Shown here: positions 1 to 57,435 of the stretch, piece after piece
Layout of the letters: every line of letters begins with the position of its first letter
Numbering within the stretch: position 1 is the first letter of the stretch
From: Thermovirga lienii DSM 17291
GTDB taxonomy: Bacteria; Synergistota; Synergistia; Synergistales; Thermovirgaceae
Direction: 5' to 3'
NCBI GenBank assembly: GCA_000233775.1
Contig: CP003096.1
Coordinates: 620,001 to 684,000 of the forward strand
Length of the DNA: 64,000 bases
Program-made: the position numbers and the translations under genes
The notes under the pieces: model-generated
Told to the model about the DNA's origin: nothing
What the model saw: the letters and a program-made list of their open reading frames with translations, nothing else
Database searches by the model: none

Positions 1-143
1 TGGATGCTGCACTCGCGGGAGCGGACATAGCCACGGTTCCTTTTGGTGTGTTGGAGAAATGTTTCAAGCATCCCCTTACGGACAGTGGCATAGAACGATT
101 CCTTGCAGATTGGGAGGGAGCAGTAAGAGGCAATGGACGATAA
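1..143 (+). CDS. Transaldolase (TalC/fructose-6-phosphate-aldolase-like), C-terminal end only
   Basis: This is the last 46 codons of a gene that begins before the window, read in frame from base 3 to the TAA at 141-143. The visible sequence contains [19 protein letters not shown] followed by an ending of the type [13 protein letters not shown]. This is characteristic of the short, about 215-residue transaldolases of the TalC/MipB group, which interconvert sugar phosphates in the non-oxidative pentose phosphate pathway through a Schiff-base lysine. That lysine lies upstream and cannot be checked. The stop lies 11 bases inside the following rho gene, so the two are probably co-transcribed and translationally coupled. 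Whether the enzyme acts as a transaldolase or as a fructose-6-phosphate aldolase cannot be told from this fragment. Confidence 0.85.
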
Positions 144-1581
144 CTTAGAAAAAAAGGTGCAAGAGCCCCAGGAAGCGGCCGCCGAAGAAGAAAAAGCAGC
201 AAATACGAAACCTCAGGAGGAAGCTAATCAGGAAACCAAGGAAGAAGCCCCTGTTGTTTCTGCTTCCAACGGCAACAAGCACGATAACAACGGAACCAAT
301 GGCAACGGGGAATCCAAGAAGGTTCCCAAACCCAAGTACACCTTCAGCGAGTTGGAAAGAAAGAACATAACCGACCTCAGGAAGCTCGCGAAGAAGATGA
401 AAGTTCAAGGTTTCTCAACCCTTCGCAAGGACGACCTCATAATTGCCATCTTGGCCAAGCAGTCAGAGGAAATGGGTTTTCGCTTTGGCGGGGGCACCTT
501 GGAAATACTGTCCGACGGCTACGGCTTTTTGAGGCCCCGGGGGCTTCTGCCCAGCGATCATGACATATACATGTCGGCATCACAAATACGCAGGTTCGGC
601 CTTCGAAATGGAGACGTAGTCTGGGGATTCATAAGGCCCCCCAAGGAACAGGAACATTACGAGGCCCTTTTGAGGGTAGAGGTGGTCAACTTCTCAGATC
701 CAGAAGCGGCAAGAAGAAGGCCTCAGTTCGAGAAGCTGACGCCTATTTTCCCCAACGAGAGGTTGCACCTGGAGACGACCAAGGAAGAACTTACCACCAG
801 ACTAATAGACCTTTTTGCCCCCATAGGCAAAGGCCAAAGGGCACTGATAGTTTCCCCGCCCAAGGCCGGCAAGACCACAGTTTTGAAAAAGATAGCCAAT
901 GCTGTGACTGCAAATCACCCTGAGGTCATTCTGATGGTGCTTCTCATAGATGAACGCCCTGAAGAGGTAACCGACATGGAGCGGTCCGTGGATGGAGAGG
1001 TTGTGGCGTCCACTTTCGATCGTCCGGCGGAAGAACACCTGAGGGTGGCCAATTTGACCTTGGAGAAGGCCAAGCGCCTAGTGGAAGTGGGAAGGGATGT
1101 GGTGCTCCTCTTGGACTCCATAACCCGACTTGCAAGGGCGTCCAACCTTGTGGAGCCTCCCTCGGGTAGAACCCTTTCTGGAGGTATGGATCCTGCTGCG
1201 CTGTACTTCCCCAAGCGCTTCTTTGGTGCTGCGCGCAACATAGAGGAGGGCGGAAGCCTCACGATAATTGGCACGGCATTGGTGGATACGGGCAGTAGAA
1301 TGGACGAAGTAATATACGAAGAGTTCAAGGGCACGGGCAACATGGAGGTCCACCTTTCTAGGAAGCTGTCCGAGCAGCGCATCTTCCCTGCCATAGACAT
1401 AACCCGCTCGGGCACCCGGCGAGAGGAGCTCTTGATGGACCCTGATGAGCTTCAGAGGGTATGGCTCCTTAGAAGGAGGATTGCCAACGTCGACGAGGCG
1501 GAAGTTCTGAACTTGATAATGAGCAAACTCAAGGCCACGTCGAGCAATGAAGAATTTCTTGCAACAATTAAGATAAATTGA
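133..1581 (+). CDS. rho: Transcription termination factor Rho
   Basis: Rho is the hexameric RNA-dependent ATPase that ends transcription of untranslated RNA. In order the protein has a Glu/Lys/Asn-rich, low-complexity tail (residues 1-68), a Rho_N helical domain (71-112), a cold-shock RNA-binding domain (about 119-186), and a RecA-like ATPase with Walker A PPKAGKTT at 242-249 and Walker B VVLLLD at 323-328. At 482 residues it is longer than the E. coli protein (419); the excess is the charged N-terminal tail, a common variable feature of Rho. The ATG at 133 is preceded by GGGAGGG about 13 bases upstream and overlaps the end of the transaldolase gene. All catalytic elements are present. Confidence 0.97.
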
Positions 1582-1620
1582 TAAGCTGAGCAAGGCCCAT
1601 ATTTTGAGAGGAGGAGCAAT

Positions 1621-3042
1621 ATGAGAGGCCAAAATTCCCGCAAGGCAAGTTTCCTATCTAGCAGGGTGGGTTTCTACCTGGTGATAACTACGATGTTGAG
1701 TATAACAGCGTTGGTTACCATCATAGCAGGACAGAGAGCACGAGTCGAAGTGCTACCCATCTTGGCCCAACCATCCTCCATCAGTGATAATTTAAGTCCA
1801 GAAACCTTCATCGTCTTAAACGTCTCCAGTGACGTTTCTGCGGGGTATGATTTGGCCTCATCAGAAGAAGATTCTTCATTCAAAGCTGCAGAGGGAATAG
1901 GACCTCTTCCTGCGTCTCCATCCATTTTTGACGATAATGTGAAGCTCGAGGAGGTTCAGCCTGAGGAGCTAGAACAAAAAGCAGCAGAAAAGCCCCAAAG
2001 TGTTGCCTCTCAGGAAGAGGTGATACTCGAGGAGGTAAAACCCTCTGAAGACAGCCTGCCGGCTGAGGAAGAGGAGAAAAGGTGGATAGAGTACTACGTG
2101 AGCCCTGGAGATACCCTTTATGACCTGGGTAAGAGGTATTCCATATCTCCAGACCTCATAGCCAAAGCCAATGACCTGAAAAATCCAGATAGGCTTTCAG
2201 AGGGACAGGAGCTTTTGATTCCCCTGAGCCCTGATGACGTGGAGGCCACAAAAGAGGAAGTTAAGGCCAGAAAGGAAAAAGATTCAAAGACCGAGGCAAG
2301 GAAGGTAGAGGTAACATCCTATACCGTGAGGGAAGGAGACAGCCTCTGGTCCATAGCGAACAAGTTCAATTTGGACATAAACACCCTCTTCGGATGCAAC
2401 GAAATGAAAAACCCCAACTACCTCAGAGTGGGTATGACCCTCAGGATTCCCAACCAGGACGGTATCTTCTATAAGGTTAAGGATGGAGATACTCTTGCCA
2501 AGATAGCGAGCAAATACGGAACCACGGTAGCATTGATACAGCAGGCCAATGGCTTCGAGGGGGCCAACATAGCCAAGGGTGTTGAGATCTTCATTCCCGG
2601 AGCCAAGCCAGTGGTTTCGGTTTATTCCGCCGCTAAGTCATCCGTGTCCAGTTCGAGAACCCTCTTTACATGGCCTCTTAGGGGCAGGATAACCAGCTCC
2701 TTTGGGTGGAGAAGGCACCCCATAACCAAGCGGAGGGATTTCCACACCGGTATTGACATCGCGAGACCCTACGGTACCATCATTCGCGCTGCCGCAGCCG
2801 GAAGGGTCGTTTATGCCGGATGGATGGGAGGATATGGCCGAGTTGTGGTCATAGATCATGGTAAAGGGTACTCCACTTTGTACGCTCATTGCAGCAGGTT
2901 GTTGGTCCGCAAAGGACAACGAGTTTCCTCTGGCCAGGCGATAGGCAAGGTGGGTGCAAGCGGAAGGGCCACAGGTTCGCACCTCCATTTCGAGGTTCGC
3001 TACAAAAACAAGCCCATAAATCCCATGAAGGTGTTAAGATAG
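1621..3042 (+). CDS. LysM-domain M23 metallopeptidase (murein hydrolase or its activator)
   Basis: This is a membrane-anchored envelope protein of 473 residues. A hydrophobic segment at about 18-37 should act as an uncleaved signal anchor. An acidic linker follows, then three LysM peptidoglycan-binding repeats (about 156-200, 236-281 and 287-330), and a C-terminal LytM/M23 domain from about 350. The zinc-site motifs are complete: HTGID (HxxxD type) and SHLHFEV (HxH type). It is therefore probably an active D,D-endopeptidase and not a degenerate EnvC/NlpD-type activator, although which cross-link it cuts is not visible. The start is well supported by GAGGAGGAGC 3 bases before the ATG. It follows rho by 39 bases and is probably co-transcribed with it; a hairpin after the stop separates it from pyrG. 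Confidence 0.9.
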   Translation: MRGQNSRKASFLSSRVGFYLVITTMLSITALVTIIAGQRARVEVLPILAQPSSISDNLSPETFIVLNVSSDVSAGYDLASSEEDSSFKAAEGIGPLPASPSIFDDNVKLEEVQPEELEQKAAEKPQSVASQEEVILEEVKPSEDSLPAEEEEKRWIEYYVSPGDTLYDLGKRYSISPDLIAKANDLKNPDRLSEGQELLIPLSPDDVEATKEEVKARKEKDSKTEARKVEVTSYTVREGDSLWSIANKFNLDINTLFGCNEMKNPNYLRVGMTLRIPNQDGIFYKVKDGDTLAKIASKYGTTVALIQQANGFEGANIAKGVEIFIPGAKPVVSVYSAAKSSVSSSRTLFTWPLRGRITSSFGWRRHPITKRRDFHTGIDIARPYGTIIRAAAAGRVVYAGWMGGYGRVVVIDHGKGYSTLYAHCSRLLVRKGQRVSSGQAIGKVGASGRATGSHLHFEVRYKNKPINPMKVLR

Positions 3043-48940: not shown

Positions 48941-50089
48941 ATGAGAAAATTTTTAAGGTCTATGTTGGAGAGATTTTCTGCTCTCCGAAATATGGATTTT
49001 TGGGCGCTCGCTACAGTGTTGTTGCTCTTTATGGTGGGCCTTATGAGCATATACAGCGCCACAGCGTCAAGAGGCTATATAGCAAGATATTTCGTTTATC
49101 GACAGATTATATGGGGCCTTATATCGTCAGGAGCATTTTTATTGGTCTTTTGCGTGGGGTACCAAAGGCTTTTGAAATGGTCTGCCATTATATATGCAAT
49201 TGTGCTTCTTCTAATGGCCTTTGTTTTAGTAGCGGGGACCATATCGAGGGGCTCTCAAAGCTGGATAGACATAGGAAGGCTTCTTCATCTAGGCCAGGTG
49301 AGAATACAACCATCTGAGCTGGGTAAGGTCTCTTTGGCTTTGGTGCTATCTTCTTGGCTTTCCAGGTTCCCTCCCAGCAGGTTTAAAAATTTCCTGGGTG
49401 CTTTAATTATCGCAGGTTTAAGCGGTATGTTGGTGTTGTTACAGCCTGATCTTGGAACAGCGGCAGTGTACGCCTGTGTGACCCTGGGGATCTTGTTTGC
49501 TGCAGGGGCTCCTAAAAAATACATTGGTACCCTGATGGCGATCGCATTGATCTGTTTGCCTGTGGGATGGCATTTTTTAAAGGAGTATCAAAAACTGAGG
49601 TTGTTGGTGTTTATAAATCCTTATCTCGACCCCCTGGGAGCAGGCTATAATGTGATCCAGTCTCGAATAGCAGTAGGGGCGGGCGGCCTTTGGGGTAAAG
49701 GATTTTTGAAGGGGACCCAGAGCAAGCTGTATTTTCTTCCTGAGCCTCATACTGATTTCATATTCAGTGTTTTTGCAGAGGAATTTGGCTTTGTAGGTGC
49801 TGTGTCGATCGTAGCGTTGTTTGGGTTTCTGCTTTATAGACTATTGAGAACGGCAAAGCTCACCAAGGATAAGAGAGCGAAGATGTACATAGTAGGAATT
49901 TCAGCGTGGATATGGTTTCAGGTTGTGGAATCCATCGCTATGAGTATGGGATTAGCCCCGGTAACGGGACTGCCCTTACCTCTTCTTTCGTACGGAGGTA
50001 GTTCTTTGGTCTCTATAAGCGTGGCCTTTGCTATTGTACAGAGCATTTATGCCTCTACGAAGAAGCAATATAAGCTGACATCAGATTAA
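48941..50089 (+). CDS. rodA: SEDS peptidoglycan glycosyltransferase RodA
   Basis: RodA polymerises lipid II into glycan strands with PBP2. The 382-residue protein has about 10 membrane helices with the SEDS motifs SRGSQSWIDIGRLLHLG, RIQPSELGKVSLALVLS, LQPDLGTA, the catalytic-loop region GLWGKGFLKGTQSKLYFLPEPHTDFIFSVFAEEFGF in parts, and GLPLPLLSYGGSSL. RodA and not FtsW is chosen because mreBCD-mrdA lie just upstream. GGGAGG precedes the ATG. Confidence 0.93.
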   Translation: MRKFLRSMLERFSALRNMDFWALATVLLLFMVGLMSIYSATASRGYIARYFVYRQIIWGLISSGAFLLVFCVGYQRLLKWSAIIYAIVLLLMAFVLVAGTISRGSQSWIDIGRLLHLGQVRIQPSELGKVSLALVLSSWLSRFPPSRFKNFLGALIIAGLSGMLVLLQPDLGTAAVYACVTLGILFAAGAPKKYIGTLMAIALICLPVGWHFLKEYQKLRLLVFINPYLDPLGAGYNVIQSRIAVGAGGLWGKGFLKGTQSKLYFLPEPHTDFIFSVFAEEFGFVGAVSIVALFGFLLYRLLRTAKLTKDKRAKMYIVGISAWIWFQVVESIAMSMGLAPVTGLPLPLLSYGGSSLVSISVAFAIVQSIYASTKKQYKLTSD

Positions 50090-50111: not shown

Positions 50112-51923
50112 ATGGATTTTCCAGAGAGGTTTGATCGCCGCAAACACATATTGAGCAAAGTAAAAAAGCCCTGTCGCTATATTGGTGGCGAGTGGGGGAT
50201 AGATTTGTCTGTAGACTGGGAAGACCCCAAAAAAGTAAAGCTTTGTCTTGCCTTCCCTGACACATACGAAGTAGGGATGAGTTACTTAGGCTTCCAGATC
50301 CTGTTTGACCAGGCAAGGCGCATTCCTCACGTTTCTGTAGATAGGTGCTACTGTCCCTGGCTTGACATGGAGCAGGAGCTCAGAAGGGCCAACCTTCCTC
50401 TTACAGGTATAAATTCCGAAAAGCCTTTGTGTGAGTTTGATGTGGTGGGGTTTACTCTCCAGTATGAGCTAACCTACACCAACATACTGACCATGCTGGA
50501 GTTGGGCGGTATTCCGCTGAAAAGCTGCGACAGGAGCAATAGTGATCCGCTGGTAATAGCTGGAGGGCCGGGAGCTCTTTGTCCTGAACCCCTTGGGGAT
50601 TTCTTTGACGTGTTTTGCCTTGGGGATGGAGAGATCCTTCTGCCTGAACTGTTGGATGTAGTAAAAGAGACAAAAAACGACAGGCTTGCTGCGATGGAAG
50701 AGTTGAGAAAGCGGCAAGGTTTTTACGTCCCCTTGCTTGAGGAAGCCCCTTTTGAGGAAGGGATCACATACAAAAGACGCGTGGTGCCCAATTTGGATGA
50801 GGCGTTTACCCCTACTTCAATGCTGGTCCCTCTTTCAGGTATAGTTCACGACCGGGCGGCCGTAGAAGTCTTCAGGGGCTGCACTCGGGGGTGCCGTTTC
50901 TGCCAAGCAGGAATGATATATAGGCCTTTAAGGGAGCGCTCTCCCAAGAACGTGGTAGAAATTGCAAAGAAGATACTGAAAGCCACTGGGTGGGAGGAGC
51001 TTGGTCTAGTGTCTTTGGCCTCCTGTGATTACTCGGGACTGAACGAAGTAATAGATGCTATTTCGCCTTTCCTGGAGGAAAAGAACGTTACACTTAGCTT
51101 GCCTAGCTTGAGGATGGATGCCTTTTCAATAGAGCTGGCCCAAAACCTAAAGGCCGTCTCAAGGAGCGGTTTGACCTTTGCTCCTGAGGCCGGTACTCAG
51201 CGGTTGAGGGATGTAATAAACAAAGGCGTTACCGAGGAGGACATCAAGAAGACCTTCGAAGAGGTAGCAAGAAGAGGTTGGGAAGGTGTGAAACTTTACT
51301 TCATGATGGGGCTTCCAACGGAAAAAGAGGAGGATTTGGAGGGCATAATAGAGGTGGCCAAGGAGGCCATGAATAGAGGCAAAGGCTTCAAGAAAAGGTT
51401 AAAAGTAAACGTCTCAGTAGCGGGATTCGTTCCCAAGCCTCATACTCCCTTTCAATGGGAACCCCAGGCATCCATGGAGTACCTGAATCAGGCGGGGAGA
51501 TGGCTTAAGGGGCAGGCTAAAAAGGGAGGCTTCAAACTTAGCTATCACGATCCTGAGCAGACTTTCTTGGAGGGAGTTGTTGCCAGGGGAGACAGGAGCG
51601 TCGGAGCTGCCATAGAGGAGGCGTGGAAAATGGGTGCCCGGTTCGATGGGTGGTCTGAATGTTTTGATTTGGGCACCTGGATGAAAGCTTTTGAGGCCGT
51701 AGGAGTAGATCCTTACCAGTATGCGAACAGGGCAAGAGACATGGAGGAGGTCCTTCCATGGGATCACATAGACGTAGGAATATCCAAGGACTTTTTGCGG
51801 AGAGAAAGAGCTAAAGCTCTGGCCGGTAAACTTACAGTGGATTGCCGGGGTGGTAAATGTAATGCATGCGGTTGGGAGACCCGAGGGTGTCCGGTAGTAG
51901 AAAGGGTAAGTGACAGATCATGA
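50112..51923 (+). CDS. B12-binding-type radical SAM protein (TIGR03960 family), function unknown
   Basis: The 603-residue protein has an N-terminal domain with a cobalamin-binding-like alpha/beta layout (about 35-200: LAFPDTYEVGMSYLGFQIL, FDVVGFTLQYELTYTNIL, VIAGGPGALCPEPL), a radical SAM core with C257-x3-C261-x2-C264 (CTRGCRFCQ), and a C-terminal extension ending in a four-Cys segment CRGGKCNACGWETRGC. A histidine ligand for cobalamin (DxHxxG) is not seen. The family sits beside the DUF2344 partner and rng in many genomes, as here. A role in RNA or ribosome modification has been guessed from that context only. The ATG overlaps nothing; AGGAGG is 13 bases upstream. Confidence 0.88.
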   Translation: MDFPERFDRRKHILSKVKKPCRYIGGEWGIDLSVDWEDPKKVKLCLAFPDTYEVGMSYLGFQILFDQARRIPHVSVDRCYCPWLDMEQELRRANLPLTGINSEKPLCEFDVVGFTLQYELTYTNILTMLELGGIPLKSCDRSNSDPLVIAGGPGALCPEPLGDFFDVFCLGDGEILLPELLDVVKETKNDRLAAMEELRKRQGFYVPLLEEAPFEEGITYKRRVVPNLDEAFTPTSMLVPLSGIVHDRAAVEVFRGCTRGCRFCQAGMIYRPLRERSPKNVVEIAKKILKATGWEELGLVSLASCDYSGLNEVIDAISPFLEEKNVTLSLPSLRMDAFSIELAQNLKAVSRSGLTFAPEAGTQRLRDVINKGVTEEDIKKTFEEVARRGWEGVKLYFMMGLPTEKEEDLEGIIEVAKEAMNRGKGFKKRLKVNVSVAGFVPKPHTPFQWEPQASMEYLNQAGRWLKGQAKKGGFKLSYHDPEQTFLEGVVARGDRSVGAAIEEAWKMGARFDGWSECFDLGTWMKAFEAVGVDPYQYANRARDMEEVLPWDHIDVGISKDFLRRERAKALAGKLTVDCRGGKCNACGWETRGCPVVERVSDRS

Positions 51924-52543
51924 TGAGGTTGAGATTCATCTATGAAAAAAGGGGACTTTTAAGTTTTGTTCCTCACGTAGAGTTGCCACCACTTATATGC
52001 AGAGCCATGCGTCGTGCAGGATACTCCATAGCCCGCACGATGGGGTTTTCCCCCAGAGACAAAATAAGCTTGGGTCCTGCCTTGCCAATAGGAGTTATAG
52101 GATTGGCTGAGCCTGCGGAGATATGGTTGGAAAAGCAAGATGTTCCCCAGGTCGAGCAGATCAATAGATACATGCCCGAGGGGCTGAGATTCCATTGTAT
52201 AAAAGAAGTTGATGCAAGGGTGCCAAGTTTGAACAAACTCTGCACTGCGGCGCACTACAGGGTATACTTCAACGTCGAGAATGCCTTGGATAAGCTAAGG
52301 TCCTTTTCTGTAGAGGAATGGGACGCTTTGGGTAAGATTGAGCATCTAGTTTTTGGCAACGACTACATCGAATATGTTCAGCTTGATCCCGCAAGGGCAG
52401 GGCTTACCAAATTGGTTTCTGTGTTAAAAGAAAAAGGTGCAGTAAAAGGATGGGAGGACCTTTTCATGGTTCGACTCGCAGTTGGTGTTCTGAAGGGAGG
52501 AGAGGTGTGCCCCCCAATGGGGCCTGCGGAATTAGATGGTTAG
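51920..52543 (+). CDS. Radical SAM-linked protein (DUF2344/TIGR03936)
   Basis: The 207-residue protein begins MRLRFIYEKRGLLSFVPHVELPPLICRAMRRAG (in two parts), the DUF2344 pattern in which KRG...LSFxxHxxL is conserved. It follows with FSPRDKISLGPALPIGV. The family always occurs next to, or fused to, the TIGR03960 radical SAM protein; here the ATG overlaps its TGA. No enzyme activity is known, and an RNA-binding role is only a suggestion. It ends 8 bases inside rng. Confidence 0.88.
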   Translation: MMRLRFIYEKRGLLSFVPHVELPPLICRAMRRAGYSIARTMGFSPRDKISLGPALPIGVIGLAEPAEIWLEKQDVPQVEQINRYMPEGLRFHCIKEVDARVPSLNKLCTAAHYRVYFNVENALDKLRSFSVEEWDALGKIEHLVFGNDYIEYVQLDPARAGLTKLVSVLKEKGAVKGWEDLFMVRLAVGVLKGGEVCPPMGPAELDG

Positions 52544-54041
52544 CGAGCCAGTGGATAAGAAGATTTTTGCTAATTGCATAGATCCTGAGGAGATGAGGGT
52601 TGCTATAGTAGAGGATGGCAAACTGGTCGAATTGTTTGTGGATCGCCTCTGGGACAGCCAGAGGACAGGTGACATATACAAAGCGAGGGTTGACAGCGTT
52701 TTGCCCGGTATGAATGCCGCTTTCGTCGATTTGGGGCAGGGGAGAAACGCTTTCTTGTACCTCGCCGAGGCAAAAGGTTTGAAGATAGAGAAAAATCAAG
52801 AATTAGTGGTACAGATATCGAGGGCGGCCAGGAAAGGAAAGGGTGCCAGAGTTACCACAAGAATATCTCTGCCGGGCAGATATCTGGTTTTGGTTCCTGG
52901 CGGAACAGATGTGGGGGTATCAAGAAAGGTCCCTTCCGAGGAAAGGGAACGTTTAAGGGTTTTAGGCAGGAAGATACGTCCGGAAGGTTTTGGTTTGATC
53001 GTCAGGACGGCAGCGGTTGGGACCGATGAAGAATTTCTTTTGAAGGACGTTTCCGAACTGCTCTCTACGTGGAGAGAGATTGAGCATGAGGCCTCCATGC
53101 AGAACGCTCCATGCCTTCTGTACCAGGATATGGGCCTTTTGGGCAAGGTCATAAGGGACGAGTTGGACGAGTCCGTTACGGAGATAATAACCGATTCGGA
53201 AGAAGAGTTCCAAGCAGCGCTGAATTACGTTGAACGTTTTTGCGCCAAAGGAAACCAGCCAAAGGTCTTTTTGCATAGGGGCAAGATGCCTCTTTTCGAA
53301 ATGTATGGAATCGAAAAGGAAATCGCCACGGCCTTGGATAGAAAGGTATGGCTCCACTCCGGAGCGTACCTGGTAATAGATCAGACTGAGGCCTTGACCG
53401 TCATAGACGTAAACACAGGGAAATACGTGGGAGACAAAGACCTCAGAAAGACAGTCCTCACGACGAACATGGAAGCAGCAGAGGAGATAGCCAGGCAGCT
53501 CAGGCTCAGAGCCATAGGGGGCATAGTCGTCATCGACTTCATAGATATGGAGAGCGAGGACGATCAGAAGGCTCTGCTCGAGCGCCTGGAGGATGTTTTC
53601 AGAAGCGACCGCTGTAAAGCCAAGGTTTTTGGATTGACTAGATTGGGGCTTGTTGAACTGACCCGCAAGAGAGCGAGGTCCGATATGAGAAGTACCTTTA
53701 CCAGAGGGTGTCCCTTCTGTGGAGGGACGGGTCAAGTCCTTAGAGAGGAGAGTATATCAGCTGCCATAAAGCGTTTTTTGAGGAAAGTAGTCAAGTCCAG
53801 TGCCCCAGAAGCCATACTTATAGAAACTAGCAATGCCATAGCGGACTTTATACATGGGAGCATTCAAAGGCAGTGGGAAGAACAGCTGGGGATAAAACTC
53901 TTCATAATGGCCAACGATAAGATGGCGTGGGACAAATACAGAATAGAATATCAGGGGAAGCTAGAGCAGGTGCTCCATAGAGTAAACCTGCTCAAGGAGA
54001 GGGAGGCAGGATGCGTTGTTTATAGAACGGATCCTGCTTAG
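52536..54041 (+). CDS. rng: Ribonuclease G (RNase E/G family)
   Basis: RNase G/E endonucleases mature rRNA and start mRNA decay. The 501-residue protein has an S1 RNA-binding domain (about 40-110), the DNase I-like catalytic domain with D291 in DVNTGKYVG and D334 in DFIDME, and the zinc-link cysteines C392 and C395 (CPFCGGTG). It lacks the long C-terminal scaffold of E. coli RNase E, so it is the G-type. The start overlaps the DUF2344 gene and the end overlaps smc by 26 bases. Confidence 0.95.
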   Translation: MVSEPVDKKIFANCIDPEEMRVAIVEDGKLVELFVDRLWDSQRTGDIYKARVDSVLPGMNAAFVDLGQGRNAFLYLAEAKGLKIEKNQELVVQISRAARKGKGARVTTRISLPGRYLVLVPGGTDVGVSRKVPSEERERLRVLGRKIRPEGFGLIVRTAAVGTDEEFLLKDVSELLSTWREIEHEASMQNAPCLLYQDMGLLGKVIRDELDESVTEIITDSEEEFQAALNYVERFCAKGNQPKVFLHRGKMPLFEMYGIEKEIATALDRKVWLHSGAYLVIDQTEALTVIDVNTGKYVGDKDLRKTVLTTNMEAAEEIARQLRLRAIGGIVVIDFIDMESEDDQKALLERLEDVFRSDRCKAKVFGLTRLGLVELTRKRARSDMRSTFTRGCPFCGGTGQVLREESISAAIKRFLRKVVKSSAPEAILIETSNAIADFIHGSIQRQWEEQLGIKLFIMANDKMAWDKYRIEYQGKLEQVLHRVNLLKEREAGCVVYRTDPA

Positions 54042-57000
54042 AGGTTTTAAAAGTTTCGGAGGGTTTCACCGATTGGATCTTTCGCCTGGTTTTACGGCGG
54101 TGGTGGGCCCTAACGGCAGCGGGAAAAGCAATATCCTCGATGCGTTGAAGTGGGCTTTGGGAGACTCTAATCCCGGAAGGCTCAGGATCCAGAGGCAGCA
54201 AGACCTTGTTTTCCAGGGAAGTGTGACTAAACCGCCGGCCAAGTTTGCGGAAGTGACCTTGTTACTCAAGGATGAAGGCAGTTTTTGCGAGATAAAAAGG
54301 CGATGGTCGCCCTCTGAGGGGGGGACTGTGCTGGTAGATGGAGAGAAGGTCAGGCTCACCGACCTGGATGAGGTCAAAAGAAAATGGAAACTGGGTGTCG
54401 ACCGCTTTGCCTTTATAGGGCAGGGCGAGATAGCAGAGGTAATACAACAAGGACCATCTCAAAGGCGGGAGCATTTTGAGGCCCTTTTCGGCATTGATGT
54501 ATACAGAGCACAGAGGGAAGGTGCTTTAGCGAGGCTAAAAGAGGCGAAAGACGAACTGGTCAGGTTGGAAACCCTGGCAGCGGAGCTAAGAAACAGGAAG
54601 GAATCTATTGCTCCAGAGGTATCCAGGGCTCTTAAGGCAAAGGAACTCTTGGACCGCCTCGATGAACTTAAGAGATGCTACTACTTTATCAAGAAAAACA
54701 ATGCAGAAAAGATCATCTTGGAGGTTACCGAGAAGATCAGGTTGTTAGAACGAAACCACGGGGTTGCGGCTCTATGGCCCCGCCTTTGGGGGGTAGGGCT
54801 GGAGTACGGCGAATCCAAGAGACAAGAGCTTCAGGGACGGGTTAAGAAACTTTGGGATGAAAGCCAAAAGAAATCCATGTCCTTGGAAAACATGAAAAAA
54901 GAGATGTTTGGACATGGAACTACAATCAAAGATTTTTTGGGGCACGAGGAAGGAATTTTAAAGGATCTAGATAAAGACAGGGTCTTTCTGGAGAATTTGT
55001 TGAAAGAGAAAAGCGAGGCAGAAAAGAGCGTCGCAGAAGCTCAGGAACGCCTGCTGCACAAAGAGGATCTCCTCAAGGCCATCAGGGAAAGACGGAAGCT
55101 AATCGATGAGGAAATACAGGAGAGAGAAAGAAAAAGGAATGGGTTGCTCAAGAGGAAGGAACATCTTGAGAGAAACCTTGAACTTTTGCGCTCCGATTTA
55201 TCCAAGACAGGAAAGATTTGTTTTGATTTTGGCAAGGAGAGGGACGAGCTTCAGATTGAAATAACAGATCTTCAGGGAAAAATATCAGCCCTGACTGAGG
55301 ATGAGAGGAAAGCTCAAAAGGACCTAGAGGAAGCTTTGGCGAAGCATGGAGGCTTCTTTTCAAAGCTTCAGGGTGCGGCCTCCCGTCTTCAAAAATTGAG
55401 AAAAGAGATAACCAAAACAGCTTCTTTTGTGGAAGACATAGAAGACACCATATATGGACAAAATTACCCAAAGCCTGTAAGGCATTTGCTTTCAGCTTCT
55501 AGATTGGGCAGGTTGGGAGTGAAGCTGTCAGTCGTAGCGGAGACCATTGAGGGACCTCAGAAGATACTTTCGGCAATAGAAGCTTTCCTTGGGGGACGCC
55601 AGTATTGGGTGCTTGTAGAGGATTTGGACGCTGCCGGTCAATGTATCAAGAGCTTGAGAGATAGCACTGCAGGTAGGGCTACCTTTTTGCCTTTGGAGAA
55701 GGCAAGACCGCGCACTCCATCAGCCGAATCTCTTATTGAGGGATTGGATGGGGTTATATCCTGGGCTTGTGACCTCATAAAGATAGACGAAAAATGGGAG
55801 ACGGCCATCAGACATTTGATGGGTGATCTGTTGATCGTGAAGGACTACGACACGGCGAAAGAATTGTCGAGGAGGGGTTTTTCCTGTCCCATTGTCACAT
55901 TGGAAGGAGACGTGCTCAATCCGTCAGGGACCGTCGTAGGAGGCTCCAAGGACAGAAAGACGGGGGCTATCACTTCTAGGGCCCATTTGTTGGAGAAGAA
56001 AACACACCTTGAACAGCTTGAAAGGGAGAAAGAATCTCTTCAGAGGGAAATAGAGCTTTTGGAGAAAGAAGAACATTCTTGGTCTTTAAGGAAACAATCA
56101 GCTCTACGTGATGCCGATTTGGTGAAAAGCGCCTTGGAGGAGACACGAAAGAGGCTTTCTAGGCTTGAGCAAAGAAAAGAAGATGTCGAGTGCCTTAGGC
56201 AAAAGGCGTTAAAGAAGTTGAAAGAACTGGGAAGAGGTTATTTAAATGTTTTGCAGGAATTGGAGCAACTAAAGGAAGATCTCCTTGTCGAGGAGGAAAA
56301 GCATTTATCCATAGGGGAACTCAAAAGGGAAGAGGAACAGGCCAAGGTAGCGGTAGAGATCGAGGCAGAGAAGTTGAAGGCTGCGCAGGATATCTTGAAC
56401 AGGATCGCTTCCGAGGAAGAGCGCCTCAAAAAGAGCATCTCCTCCAGAGAGGAATCTGCCAGGCTGTCTGGACAGAGGAGAAAGTTCGCTTTGGAGGCGC
56501 TTAAGGCCCTAGGACAGCAGTATTTATCCGAGTGGAATGCTCGCAACGAGTTGATTGGTCGTATCCATGAGATTGAGAAGGAAATTGGATTGTGGGAGAA
56601 CAGATTGTCTCACTTAAAAAAGAAAAAGGCCATGGCAGACATGAGATCCAAGGAAAGGACATTGGAGATAGAGGAGTTGAAACTGAAAAAAGCATCGGCT
56701 GAGACGGAGCTGGCAGAGTTGGCGGAGATGTGGGACGGGCAGGCAATAGGACCGTCACCATTGGAGGAGACAGAAAGAAGGCCAGAGGAAATAAAGAAGA
56801 AGATAAGACAGCTGGAAAGAACACTAAAAGAGATGGGAAACGTCCAAATGGGTGTCCTTTCCGAAGATGAATCCCTGCAGAAAAGGTTGGAATATCTAGG
56901 GGAGCAGCTAAGGGATGTAAGTTCCGGGATAGAGGAACTGGAGAGACTGATATCCAAGGCCGATGAACACGCAAGCCGGATTTTCAAAGATGCATTGAGG

Positions 57001-57435
57001 AATATAAACTCGCGTTTCAGCGAGCTGTTTAAAAACCTCTTTGGAGGAGGAGAAGCACAATTGAGGATGGCCGAGGGCGGAGATCTTTGGGAGTCTGGAG
57101 TTGAAGTCATTGCCTGTCCTCCAGGAAAGAGGCCCCAGCACATTGGCCAGCTATCTGGAGGAGAGCAGTCCCTTGCTGCCATTTCCTTGCTCTTTGCAGC
57201 CATGGAGGTTGCAGAAGTTCCTATAGCAGTTTTGGATGAAGTGGATGCTGCGTTGGACGAATCCAACCTGAGACGATTTGCCGCCCTTGCCGAGGAGTAT
57301 GGGAAGAGGATACAGCTGCTTTGTATGACCCACAGGCGTGCAACAATGGAGCATGCGGATATCATGTACGGAGTCACCTTGTCTGAGCCGGGTTTGTCTC
57401 AGATTGTGGGGGTGCGCTTGGAGGATTGGGATTGA
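54016..57435 (+). CDS. smc: Chromosome segregation protein SMC
   Basis: SMC dimers organise and segregate the chromosome with ScpA and ScpB. The 1139-residue protein has Walker A GPNGSGKS (31-38), two long coiled coils (about 150-480 and 650-1000), a hinge (about 490-650, with FLGGRQYWVLVEDLDAAG and NPSGTVVGGSKDRK), the ABC signature LSGGEQSLAA, and Walker B AVLDEVDAALDE. The start is TTG 54016 with GGGAGG 9 bases before it; an ATG at 54011 is out of frame. scpA/scpB are not in the window. Confidence 0.96.
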   Translation: MFIERILLRGFKSFGGFHRLDLSPGFTAVVGPNGSGKSNILDALKWALGDSNPGRLRIQRQQDLVFQGSVTKPPAKFAEVTLLLKDEGSFCEIKRRWSPSEGGTVLVDGEKVRLTDLDEVKRKWKLGVDRFAFIGQGEIAEVIQQGPSQRREHFEALFGIDVYRAQREGALARLKEAKDELVRLETLAAELRNRKESIAPEVSRALKAKELLDRLDELKRCYYFIKKNNAEKIILEVTEKIRLLERNHGVAALWPRLWGVGLEYGESKRQELQGRVKKLWDESQKKSMSLENMKKEMFGHGTTIKDFLGHEEGILKDLDKDRVFLENLLKEKSEAEKSVAEAQERLLHKEDLLKAIRERRKLIDEEIQERERKRNGLLKRKEHLERNLELLRSDLSKTGKICFDFGKERDELQIEITDLQGKISALTEDERKAQKDLEEALAKHGGFFSKLQGAASRLQKLRKEITKTASFVEDIEDTIYGQNYPKPVRHLLSASRLGRLGVKLSVVAETIEGPQKILSAIEAFLGGRQYWVLVEDLDAAGQCIKSLRDSTAGRATFLPLEKARPRTPSAESLIEGLDGVISWACDLIKIDEKWETAIRHLMGDLLIVKDYDTAKELSRRGFSCPIVTLEGDVLNPSGTVVGGSKDRKTGAITSRAHLLEKKTHLEQLEREKESLQREIELLEKEEHSWSLRKQSALRDADLVKSALEETRKRLSRLEQRKEDVECLRQKALKKLKELGRGYLNVLQELEQLKEDLLVEEEKHLSIGELKREEEQAKVAVEIEAEKLKAAQDILNRIASEEERLKKSISSREESARLSGQRRKFALEALKALGQQYLSEWNARNELIGRIHEIEKEIGLWENRLSHLKKKKAMADMRSKERTLEIEELKLKKASAETELAELAEMWDGQAIGPSPLEETERRPEEIKKKIRQLERTLKEMGNVQMGVLSEDESLQKRLEYLGEQLRDVSSGIEELERLISKADEHASRIFKDALRNINSRFSELFKNLFGGGEAQLRMAEGGDLWESGVEVIACPPGKRPQHIGQLSGGEQSLAAISLLFAAMEVAEVPIAVLDEVDAALDESNLRRFAALAEEYGKRIQLLCMTHRRATMEHADIMYGVTLSEPGLSQIVGVRLEDWD

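Follow-up and report, generated by a model that had tools for sequence, protein, structure and literature searches.

A radical SAM protein and a TruA-like partner lacking the catalytic aspartate as a probable two-subunit RNA-modifying enzyme of bacteria

The window analysed here, a stretch of 64,000 nucleotides from Thermovirga lienii DSM 17291 (contig CP003096.1, positions 620,001 to 684,000, forward strand), encodes a radical S-adenosylmethionine (SAM) protein of the family TIGR03960, directly followed by a protein of the family TIGR03936, also known as DUF2344. The two proteins are likely, though far from certainly, to be one two-subunit RNA-modifying radical SAM enzyme, in which DUF2344 is a dead TruA-type pseudouridine synthase acting as adaptor. 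Their joint product is probably a chemical modification of tRNA or ribosomal RNA (rRNA) that occurs in many bacteria and is not yet described. This reading is carried by the domains and predicted folds of both proteins, the loss of the catalytic aspartate from DUF2344, residue conservation, the co-retention and natural fusion of the two genes, and a context of RNA and ribosome genes.

50112..51923, + strand: TIGR03960 B12-type radical SAM protein, 603 residues, 701 bits, with the Pfam domains Radical_SAM_N2 and Radical_SAM
51920..52543, + strand: TIGR03936/DUF2344, TruA fold without the catalytic aspartate, presumed RNA-binding subunit, 207 residues

The first protein belongs to TIGR03960 (rSAM_fuse_unch) with 701.2 bits over residues 12-590, against a curated cut-off of 462.3, and its closest relative found, in a metagenome-assembled genome (MAG) of Thermovirga, is 78% identical. 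The second belongs to TIGR03936 with 91.7 bits (curated cut-off 71.9) and to PF10105 (DUF2344) with 84.4 bits (curated cut-off 23.8), being the sole TIGR03936 match in its genome (2.0 Mb, 2 contigs). As given in a preliminary description of this DNA, the two genes overlap by ATGA (51920-51923), and DUF2344 overlaps the next gene, rng, by 8 bases (52536-52543), both exact when read from the bases. Position 50112 is preceded by AGGAGG, which resembles a Shine-Dalgarno sequence.

The predicted TruA fold of DUF2344

The AlphaFold 2 (AF2) model of the window DUF2344, built on an alignment of 67 sequences, has a mean predicted local distance difference test score (pLDDT) of 95 and a predicted template modelling score (pTM) of 0.89. 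By Foldseek, its best matches in the Protein Data Bank (PDB) are TruA, Pus1 and PUS3. When superposed with VIA-align, the model aligns with PUS3 (9enc) at Z 12.9 over 181 residues (3.2 Å) and with TruA (1vs3) at Z 12.6 over 177 of 206 residues (3.0 Å), alignments that span nearly the whole model and give it the overall fold of TruA (TIGR00071), while TruD, Cbf5, TruB and RluB rank lower. The relationship is also seen independently of structure, as hhalign of DUF2344 with 12 Synergistota TruA sequences reaches 93.9% (E 1.5e-7, 57 columns), the similarity being located just after the TruA catalytic motif. In the controls, eight unrelated neighbour families remain at or below 0.3%, 30 column shuffles at or below 1.0% and the reversed alignment at 0.1%. 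In addition, an hmmsearch of the PDB with DUF2344 has TruA as its top match (E 0.0024), and the TIGR03936 model weakly matches TruA open reading frames (ORFs) in Synergistota. A clan analysis, in the part available, lists DUF2344 alongside PseudoU_synth_1 (PMC7955657). The kinship with pseudouridine synthases is thus already known as a Pfam clan, and what is new is its meaning for the TIGR03960 pair.

The known pseudouridine synthase families have an aspartate as catalytic residue, and it is invariant in the TruA sequences from Synergistota (12/12). At the column aligned to it, none of the 67 DUF2344 sequences has aspartate (P 24, A 20, S 17, G 5, Q 1), and the RTDxGVHA motif of TruA is lost, which places DUF2344 outside the TruA synthases with respect to the catalytic residue. 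Two other positions are strongly conserved.

52085..52087, + strand: proline codon aligned to the TruA catalytic aspartate (hhalign column)
52256..52258, + strand: Tyr112 (206-residue numbering), tyrosine in 65/67, probable counterpart of the conserved active-site tyrosine of pseudouridine synthases
52472..52474, + strand: Arg184, near-invariant basic residue, arginine in 63 and lysine in 4 of 67

This tyrosine and arginine may match the active-site tyrosine and arginine of pseudouridine synthases, the placement of Tyr112 being approximate, as the extended hhalign alignment is weak there and offset by a gap. As the catalytic aspartate is absent in 67/67, DUF2344 is read as a dead pseudouridine synthase fold and, most simply, as an RNA-binding subunit. 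It is not a substitute for TruA either, since the same genome has a separate gene for a true TruA at another place.

The radical SAM protein and its retention with DUF2344

The motifs of the TIGR03960 protein were followed through 81 sequences, those of 80 homologous loci and the window.

50880..50903, + strand: radical SAM cluster motif C257-x3-C261-x2-C264, 81/81
50289..50732, + strand: Rossmann/B12-binding-like domain (Radical_SAM_N2 of Pfam), residues 60-207, with the loops GG151-152 and G-x-G-E171-174
50259..50276, + strand: D50-x-Y52-E-x-G55, following Rossmann strand 1, at the expected place of DxHxxG
51843..51890, + strand: C-terminal cysteine motif C578-R-x3-C583-x2-C586 ... C593, candidate metal site for zinc or a second Fe-S cluster

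The C-x3-C-x2-C motif, the PF04055 match (78 bits) and the barrel fold predicted for a fused relative assign the protein to the radical SAM superfamily. That relative, a natural fusion of both families from a Desulfomonile MAG (L073, 824 residues), is the source of the fold matches given for the radical SAM part; it was modelled by AlphaFold on 75 aligned rows with pLDDT 91 and pTM 0.92. Its first part is closest to MgmA (9ccb; Z 24.1, root-mean-square deviation 3.1, 372 residues aligned, 19% identity), followed by MtaB (an integrative model), CysS, MiaB with RNA (Z 18.6-19.5), AprD4, TsrM (Z 18.8), RimO and OxsB (Z 18.0). Its second part matches PUS3 (Z 15.0) and TruA (Z 14.8). The pTM of 0.92 across all 824 residues speaks for the two halves being set in a defined position relative to each other.

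In this fusion, a Rossmann-type domain precedes the radical SAM domain, as in cobalamin-dependent radical SAM enzymes, and, in the numbering of the window protein, G151, G152, G171 and E174 of the loops are each conserved in 81/81. The preliminary description noted the lack of an evident DxHxxG motif in this domain, as is indeed the case: all 81 sequences have D-x-Y instead, extended to D-x-Y-[ED]-x-G in 77/81, its placement after strand 1 being predicted from the sequence and from the secondary structure of the relative. DxHxxG, the His-on motif, is not a requirement of this class of enzymes, and its lack does not argue against cobalamin, because MgmA holds cobalamin in its Rossmann domain (PMC11796369, in the part available) and Mmp10 lacks the DxHxxG motif (PMC8828468, as excerpted); in the accessible portion of PMC13331322, several cobalamin-dependent radical SAM enzymes are described as binding the cofactor without a histidine below the cobalt. 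The genome of the window has three cobalamin riboswitches, which bear only indirectly on cobalamin binding.

The C-terminal cysteine segment, likewise pointed out before, proved to be a family feature, with C578, C583 and C586 invariant (81/81; family form CR-x(2,3)-C-x2-C) and a fourth cysteine always present at most 30 residues further on (81/81), at variable spacing. In the fused relative, this motif starts at residue 566 and the block mean of pLDDT falls from 84 (561-570) to 62 (571-580), a drop in confidence that can happen at a metal site left unfilled in the model.

Another TIGR03960-like protein of the same genome is shorter and scores 171 bits, below the cut-off of 462 (L256:2271-3755, G000:C1 ~1043770-1045254); it has Radical_SAM_N2, Radical_SAM and B12-binding domains and adjoins a SPOR-domain gene.

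The pairing of the two families was earlier called obligate, which is nearly right. Of the 80 homologous loci, 72 have the genes side by side, 6 have them fused and 1 has 691 bases between them, while in the last (L046) the contig breaks off at the radical SAM gene, so that the arrangement is not due to chance. The exceptions seen are 4 of the 31 DUF2344-positive Chloroflexota genomes and two single genomes, G048 and G179, described below. The phylum samples were centred on loci from Thermotalea (L014), a Chloroflexi MAG (L059) and the Desulfomonile MAG, after which the phyla are named here; a further sample centred on an 'Armatimonadetes' MAG shared its genome pool with the Clostridia sample and adds no phylum.

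DUF2344 is present in 56/59 Desulfobacterota genomes; all 30 loci inspected there are fused, and the DUF2344 frame has at least 767 residues in 55/56 matches of the whole sample. In the Clostridia phylum, it is found in 224/249 sampled genomes. Of the 25 negatives, 20 were searched for TIGR03960, and 19 of these also lack it, while 20/20 chosen positives (lower-scoring matches, a non-random pick) have it (Fisher p 3e-10, relatedness ignored). The exception, G179, has TIGR03960 without DUF2344; as the gene sits near the contig start (bases 114-1898, minus strand), its partner may lie off the contig end.

The strongest test comes from Chloroflexota. Among 61 genomes of this phylum, with TIGR03960 counted as present at E 1e-80 or better, 27 have both families, 4 only DUF2344, none only TIGR03960 and 30 neither (Fisher p 2e-13, relatedness ignored). 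By their coordinates, the two genes lie within 3 kb in 11 of these 27 and on separate contigs or at a distance of 84 kb or more in 16, one of which (G331) is near contig ends on both sides and not clear-cut. Co-retention without linkage cannot be operon hitch-hiking. Among 61 Synergistota genomes, at E 0.001, TIGR03960 is matched in 60 (59 over the cut-off) and TIGR03936 in all 61 (55 over the cut-off). G048 has DUF2344 and lacks TIGR03960; in G035, the TIGR03936 match is its TruA and TIGR03960 appears as fragments only; and in G008, G013, G026, G054 and G059 the genes are on different contigs, where assembly breaks are possible. Both families are also above their cut-offs in the control genomes of Synechococcus elongatus and Thermotoga maritima.

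A few irregular cases are recorded here. One Chloroflexota locus has a 250-residue ORF between the two genes (L219:3155-3904), without a Pfam or NCBIfam match at E 1e-5. Matches in records filed under 'phages' are mostly short unannotated gut contigs, plus one record with bacterial metabolic genes, and poor evidence of phage carriage. In a record named Microcystis phage MaAM05 (MW495066.1, L257), which resembles a bacterial contig, mqnC and ispG adjoin a TIGR03960-like gene. A fusion of DUF2344 with rng, suspected from frames of more than 1100 residues, was rejected, as these frames proved to be fusions of the radical SAM gene with DUF2344 and read-through, and no fusion with rng was seen in the 10 loci examined for long frames.

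Neighbouring genes and the probable target

52536..54041, + strand: rng, RNase E/G family (Rne/Rng, 446 bits), frequent and non-obligate neighbour
54016..57435, + strand: smc (SMC, 622 bits), neighbour found only in Synergistota loci
48941..50089, + strand: rodA, directly upstream of TIGR03960, likewise upstream in many Clostridia loci and two Actinomycetota loci

The order in the window, without large gaps, is mreB-mreC-(mreD)-mrdA-minC-minD-minE-rodA-TIGR03960-TIGR03936-rng-smc, where minC, rodA, the pair, rng and smc were scanned against families and the remaining names were taken from the sequences alone. Between 42946 and 57435, the cell-shape and division genes mreBC-mrdA-minCDE-rodA thus directly precede the RNA pair, which is followed by rng and smc.

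The preliminary description took the pair to be coupled to rng and smc. A survey of neighbourhoods across phyla, which it had called for, shows instead that the functional unit is the pair. The gene directly downstream, in 79 of the 80 homologous loci, is rng in 54, another gene in 17, a contig end in 7 and rplU in 1. In samples made of best-scoring matches rather than random draws, rng follows directly in 50 of 54 Clostridia-phylum loci (rplU 2, other 2), in 24 of 30 Desulfobacterota loci and in none of 30 Chloroflexota loci (rplU 4, other 26). Where at least 8 kb is available downstream (50 homologous loci), rng occurs in 41, rplU/rpmA/obg in 23 and smc in 6, all six from Synergistota; smc was found after rng only in Synergistota loci (L002-L007, plus L211 and L212). 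The rplU, rpmA and obg profiles were made from clusters named by eye and match the genes annotated as rplU, rpmA and obgE in Collinsella.

The order rodA-pair-rng-rplU-rpmA-obg is common to Clostridia and an actinomycete, Nonomuraea (rodA-rSAM-DUF2344-rng-rplU-rpmA-obg, where rSAM is the radical SAM gene). In Collinsella, it reads rodA-x-rSAM-DUF2344-rplU-rpmA-obgE-nadD-yqeK-rsfS, with rplU directly after the pair and no rng there. Across these loci, rng is a common but dispensable neighbour. On the plasmid pRUMAL02 of Ruminococcus albus 7 (L260), a relocated copy of the pair is followed by rplS-lepB-lepB-ylqF. This plasmid, typed as conjugative, therewith carries core ribosome genes beside TIGR03960-TIGR03936, namely rplS, ylqF and a ribonuclease HII gene.

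MnmE and TilS are tRNA wobble-base modification enzymes. In 18 wide Chloroflexota loci, DUF2344 adjoins MnmE in four (L222, L223, L225 and L226) and overlaps TilS in one (L221); in all five, TIGR03960 is located elsewhere in the genome, and these genomes are possibly related. RNase Z-like proteins adjoin TIGR03960 in three further Chloroflexota loci (L243, L251 and L252), and other neighbours of the separated genes are a phosphotransferase, aconitase, transketolase and succinyl-CoA ligase. The theme of the context is translation, ribosome and tRNA-modification genes. The joint action on RNA proposed in the preliminary description was based on the obligate pairing and the placement before RNase G; the link to RNA and the ribosome is supported, with the TruA fold as stronger evidence than gene order.

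Based on these features, a mode of action can be proposed. Having kept the TruA-family scaffold and, probably, the base-stacking tyrosine and the conserved arginine, and having lost the aspartate of pseudouridine synthases, DUF2344 would bind a structured RNA, either tRNA or, in the course of ribosome assembly, a helix of rRNA, and present a nucleotide. TIGR03960 would then dock on DUF2344, cleave SAM at the [4Fe-4S] cluster held by C257/C261/C264 and, with cobalamin in its Rossmann domain, most likely methylate a nucleotide carbon that ordinary methyltransferases cannot reach, while the C-terminal cysteine motif would hold a second Fe-S cluster or zinc, near in sequence to the join of the two parts. 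C-methylation is the reaction most simply suggested by analogy with MgmA. Regarding the target, the chances of tRNA are about even, favoured because the fold is nearest to TruA and PUS3 and because of the MnmE and TilS neighbours; rRNA is the more tentative choice, and it keeps its place because of rng and the neighbours coding for L21, L27, Obg and L19/YlqF.

Two candidate products were considered and set aside. N-330 is an unidentified cytidine at 16S C1404 of Haloferax volcanii and Thermotoga maritima (PMC2584109, in the part available); it fits T. maritima, and the pair cannot be its only maker, as the control genome of H. volcanii has no match to either family. For 5-methyldihydrouridine, as a product of radical C-methylation, the accessible part of PMC7694415 offered no link to the family.

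Alternative readings and known systems

Several observations weigh against a two-subunit RNA-modifying enzyme. The RNA and the product are proposed from sequences and models, and the docking of the two halves is suggested by the pTM of the fused relative. The window DUF2344 is mildly basic, with an isoelectric point of 7.7, the medians being 8.5 for the 67 sequences and 9.3 for the TruA set. Some radical SAM proteins having this Rossmann domain may not bind cobalamin. A copy of the pair in Monoglobus has no ribosomal neighbour, and other unlinked Chloroflexota copies adjoin non-RNA genes (CorC-like, M48 protease). Moreover, the four Chloroflexota genomes G326, G339, G349 and G358 keep a divergent DUF2344 with TIGR03960 not found, and so DUF2344 can have a role alone. 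In these genomes (loci L234, L233, L235 and L232, respectively), the divergent protein perhaps has a partner-free role or is a remnant; in G326, G339 and G358, it stands between rodA and rplU.

That two of the nearest structures, MgmA and RimO, belong to enzymes acting on proteins also counts here, and it leads to the foremost alternative, according to which the pair C-methylates a residue of a ribosomal or ribosome-associated protein, with the dead TruA fold docking the enzyme on rRNA. The genes for L21, L27 or L19 after the pair in several lineages would agree with it; however, a complete pseudouridine synthase fold is one that handles RNA, the structure of MiaB with RNA likewise ranks among the nearest matches, and no dedicated protein substrate is seen travelling with the pair, which leaves this explanation improbable. 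Slightly less probable still is that the product of the radical SAM protein is a small molecule or cofactor, with DUF2344 as scaffold or regulator: small-molecule substrates are found for many B12-type radical SAM enzymes, as illustrated by the matches to TsrM, OxsB and CysS, but no conserved biosynthetic neighbours occur in the loci inspected, and the protein is fused to, or co-retained with, a pseudouridine synthase fold. It is very unlikely that DUF2344 is an active pseudouridine synthase by means of another residue, with the radical SAM protein modifying its product, since against the complete fold and the largely kept tyrosine and arginine stands the aspartate missing from all 67 sequences. 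Equally hard to sustain is membership of the pair in an RNase G/SMC system, as the overlapping genes of the window and the rng in 41/50 long loci are offset by 0/30 in Chloroflexota, by Collinsella, by smc having been found only in Synergistota and by the 10 loci without an rng fusion; as an obligate system, it is already refuted.

The RNA-modifying enzyme remains the preferred reading. If it is true, much of the bacterial tree has a translation-linked RNA modification still to be described, and there is another way to build radical SAM RNA enzymes, in which an inactivated modification enzyme is reused as RNA adaptor. A literature search returned no functional paper on TIGR03960, TIGR03936 or DUF2344, which is weak evidence as most subscription journals are outside the search. 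Both families are already catalogued, and the dead-TruA identity narrows the 'unknown function' of DUF2344 to a directly testable question.

Compared with known systems, the pair shares features with several. The methylthiotransferases MiaB, MtaB and RimO act on tRNA or the ribosome, and MiaB with RNA is a fold match; however, the TIGR03960 protein is below the cut-offs of TIGR00089 (17.7 bits against 251), TIGR01579 and TIGR01125. MgmA, the cobalamin-dependent radical SAM glutamine C-methylase of methyl-coenzyme M reductase, has the same Rossmann domain and radical SAM barrel, but its substrate is a protein, whereas TIGR03960 has a near-obligate partner as well as the C-terminal cysteine motif. 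Small-subunit complexes of mitoribosomes (6sga from trypanosome; 9hny) contain TruA-like proteins that match the DUF2344 model with Z 11.4-11.5 and have the pseudouridine synthase fold, in their case in ribosome assembly; they are not known to have a radical SAM partner. In archaeosine synthesis, RaSEA and ArcS combine a radical SAM enzyme with a protein related to the RNA-modifying enzyme TGT, being an analogue of the pair in how it may work, from different families and folds; RaSEA and ArcS families were absent from general Pfam and NCBIfam scans of the window proteins, and no direct comparison was made. The tRNA pseudouridine synthases TruA, Pus1 and PUS3 share the whole fold of DUF2344, which, unlike them, has no catalytic aspartate and, apart from the exceptions described above, is retained together with a radical SAM protein or forms a fusion with it.

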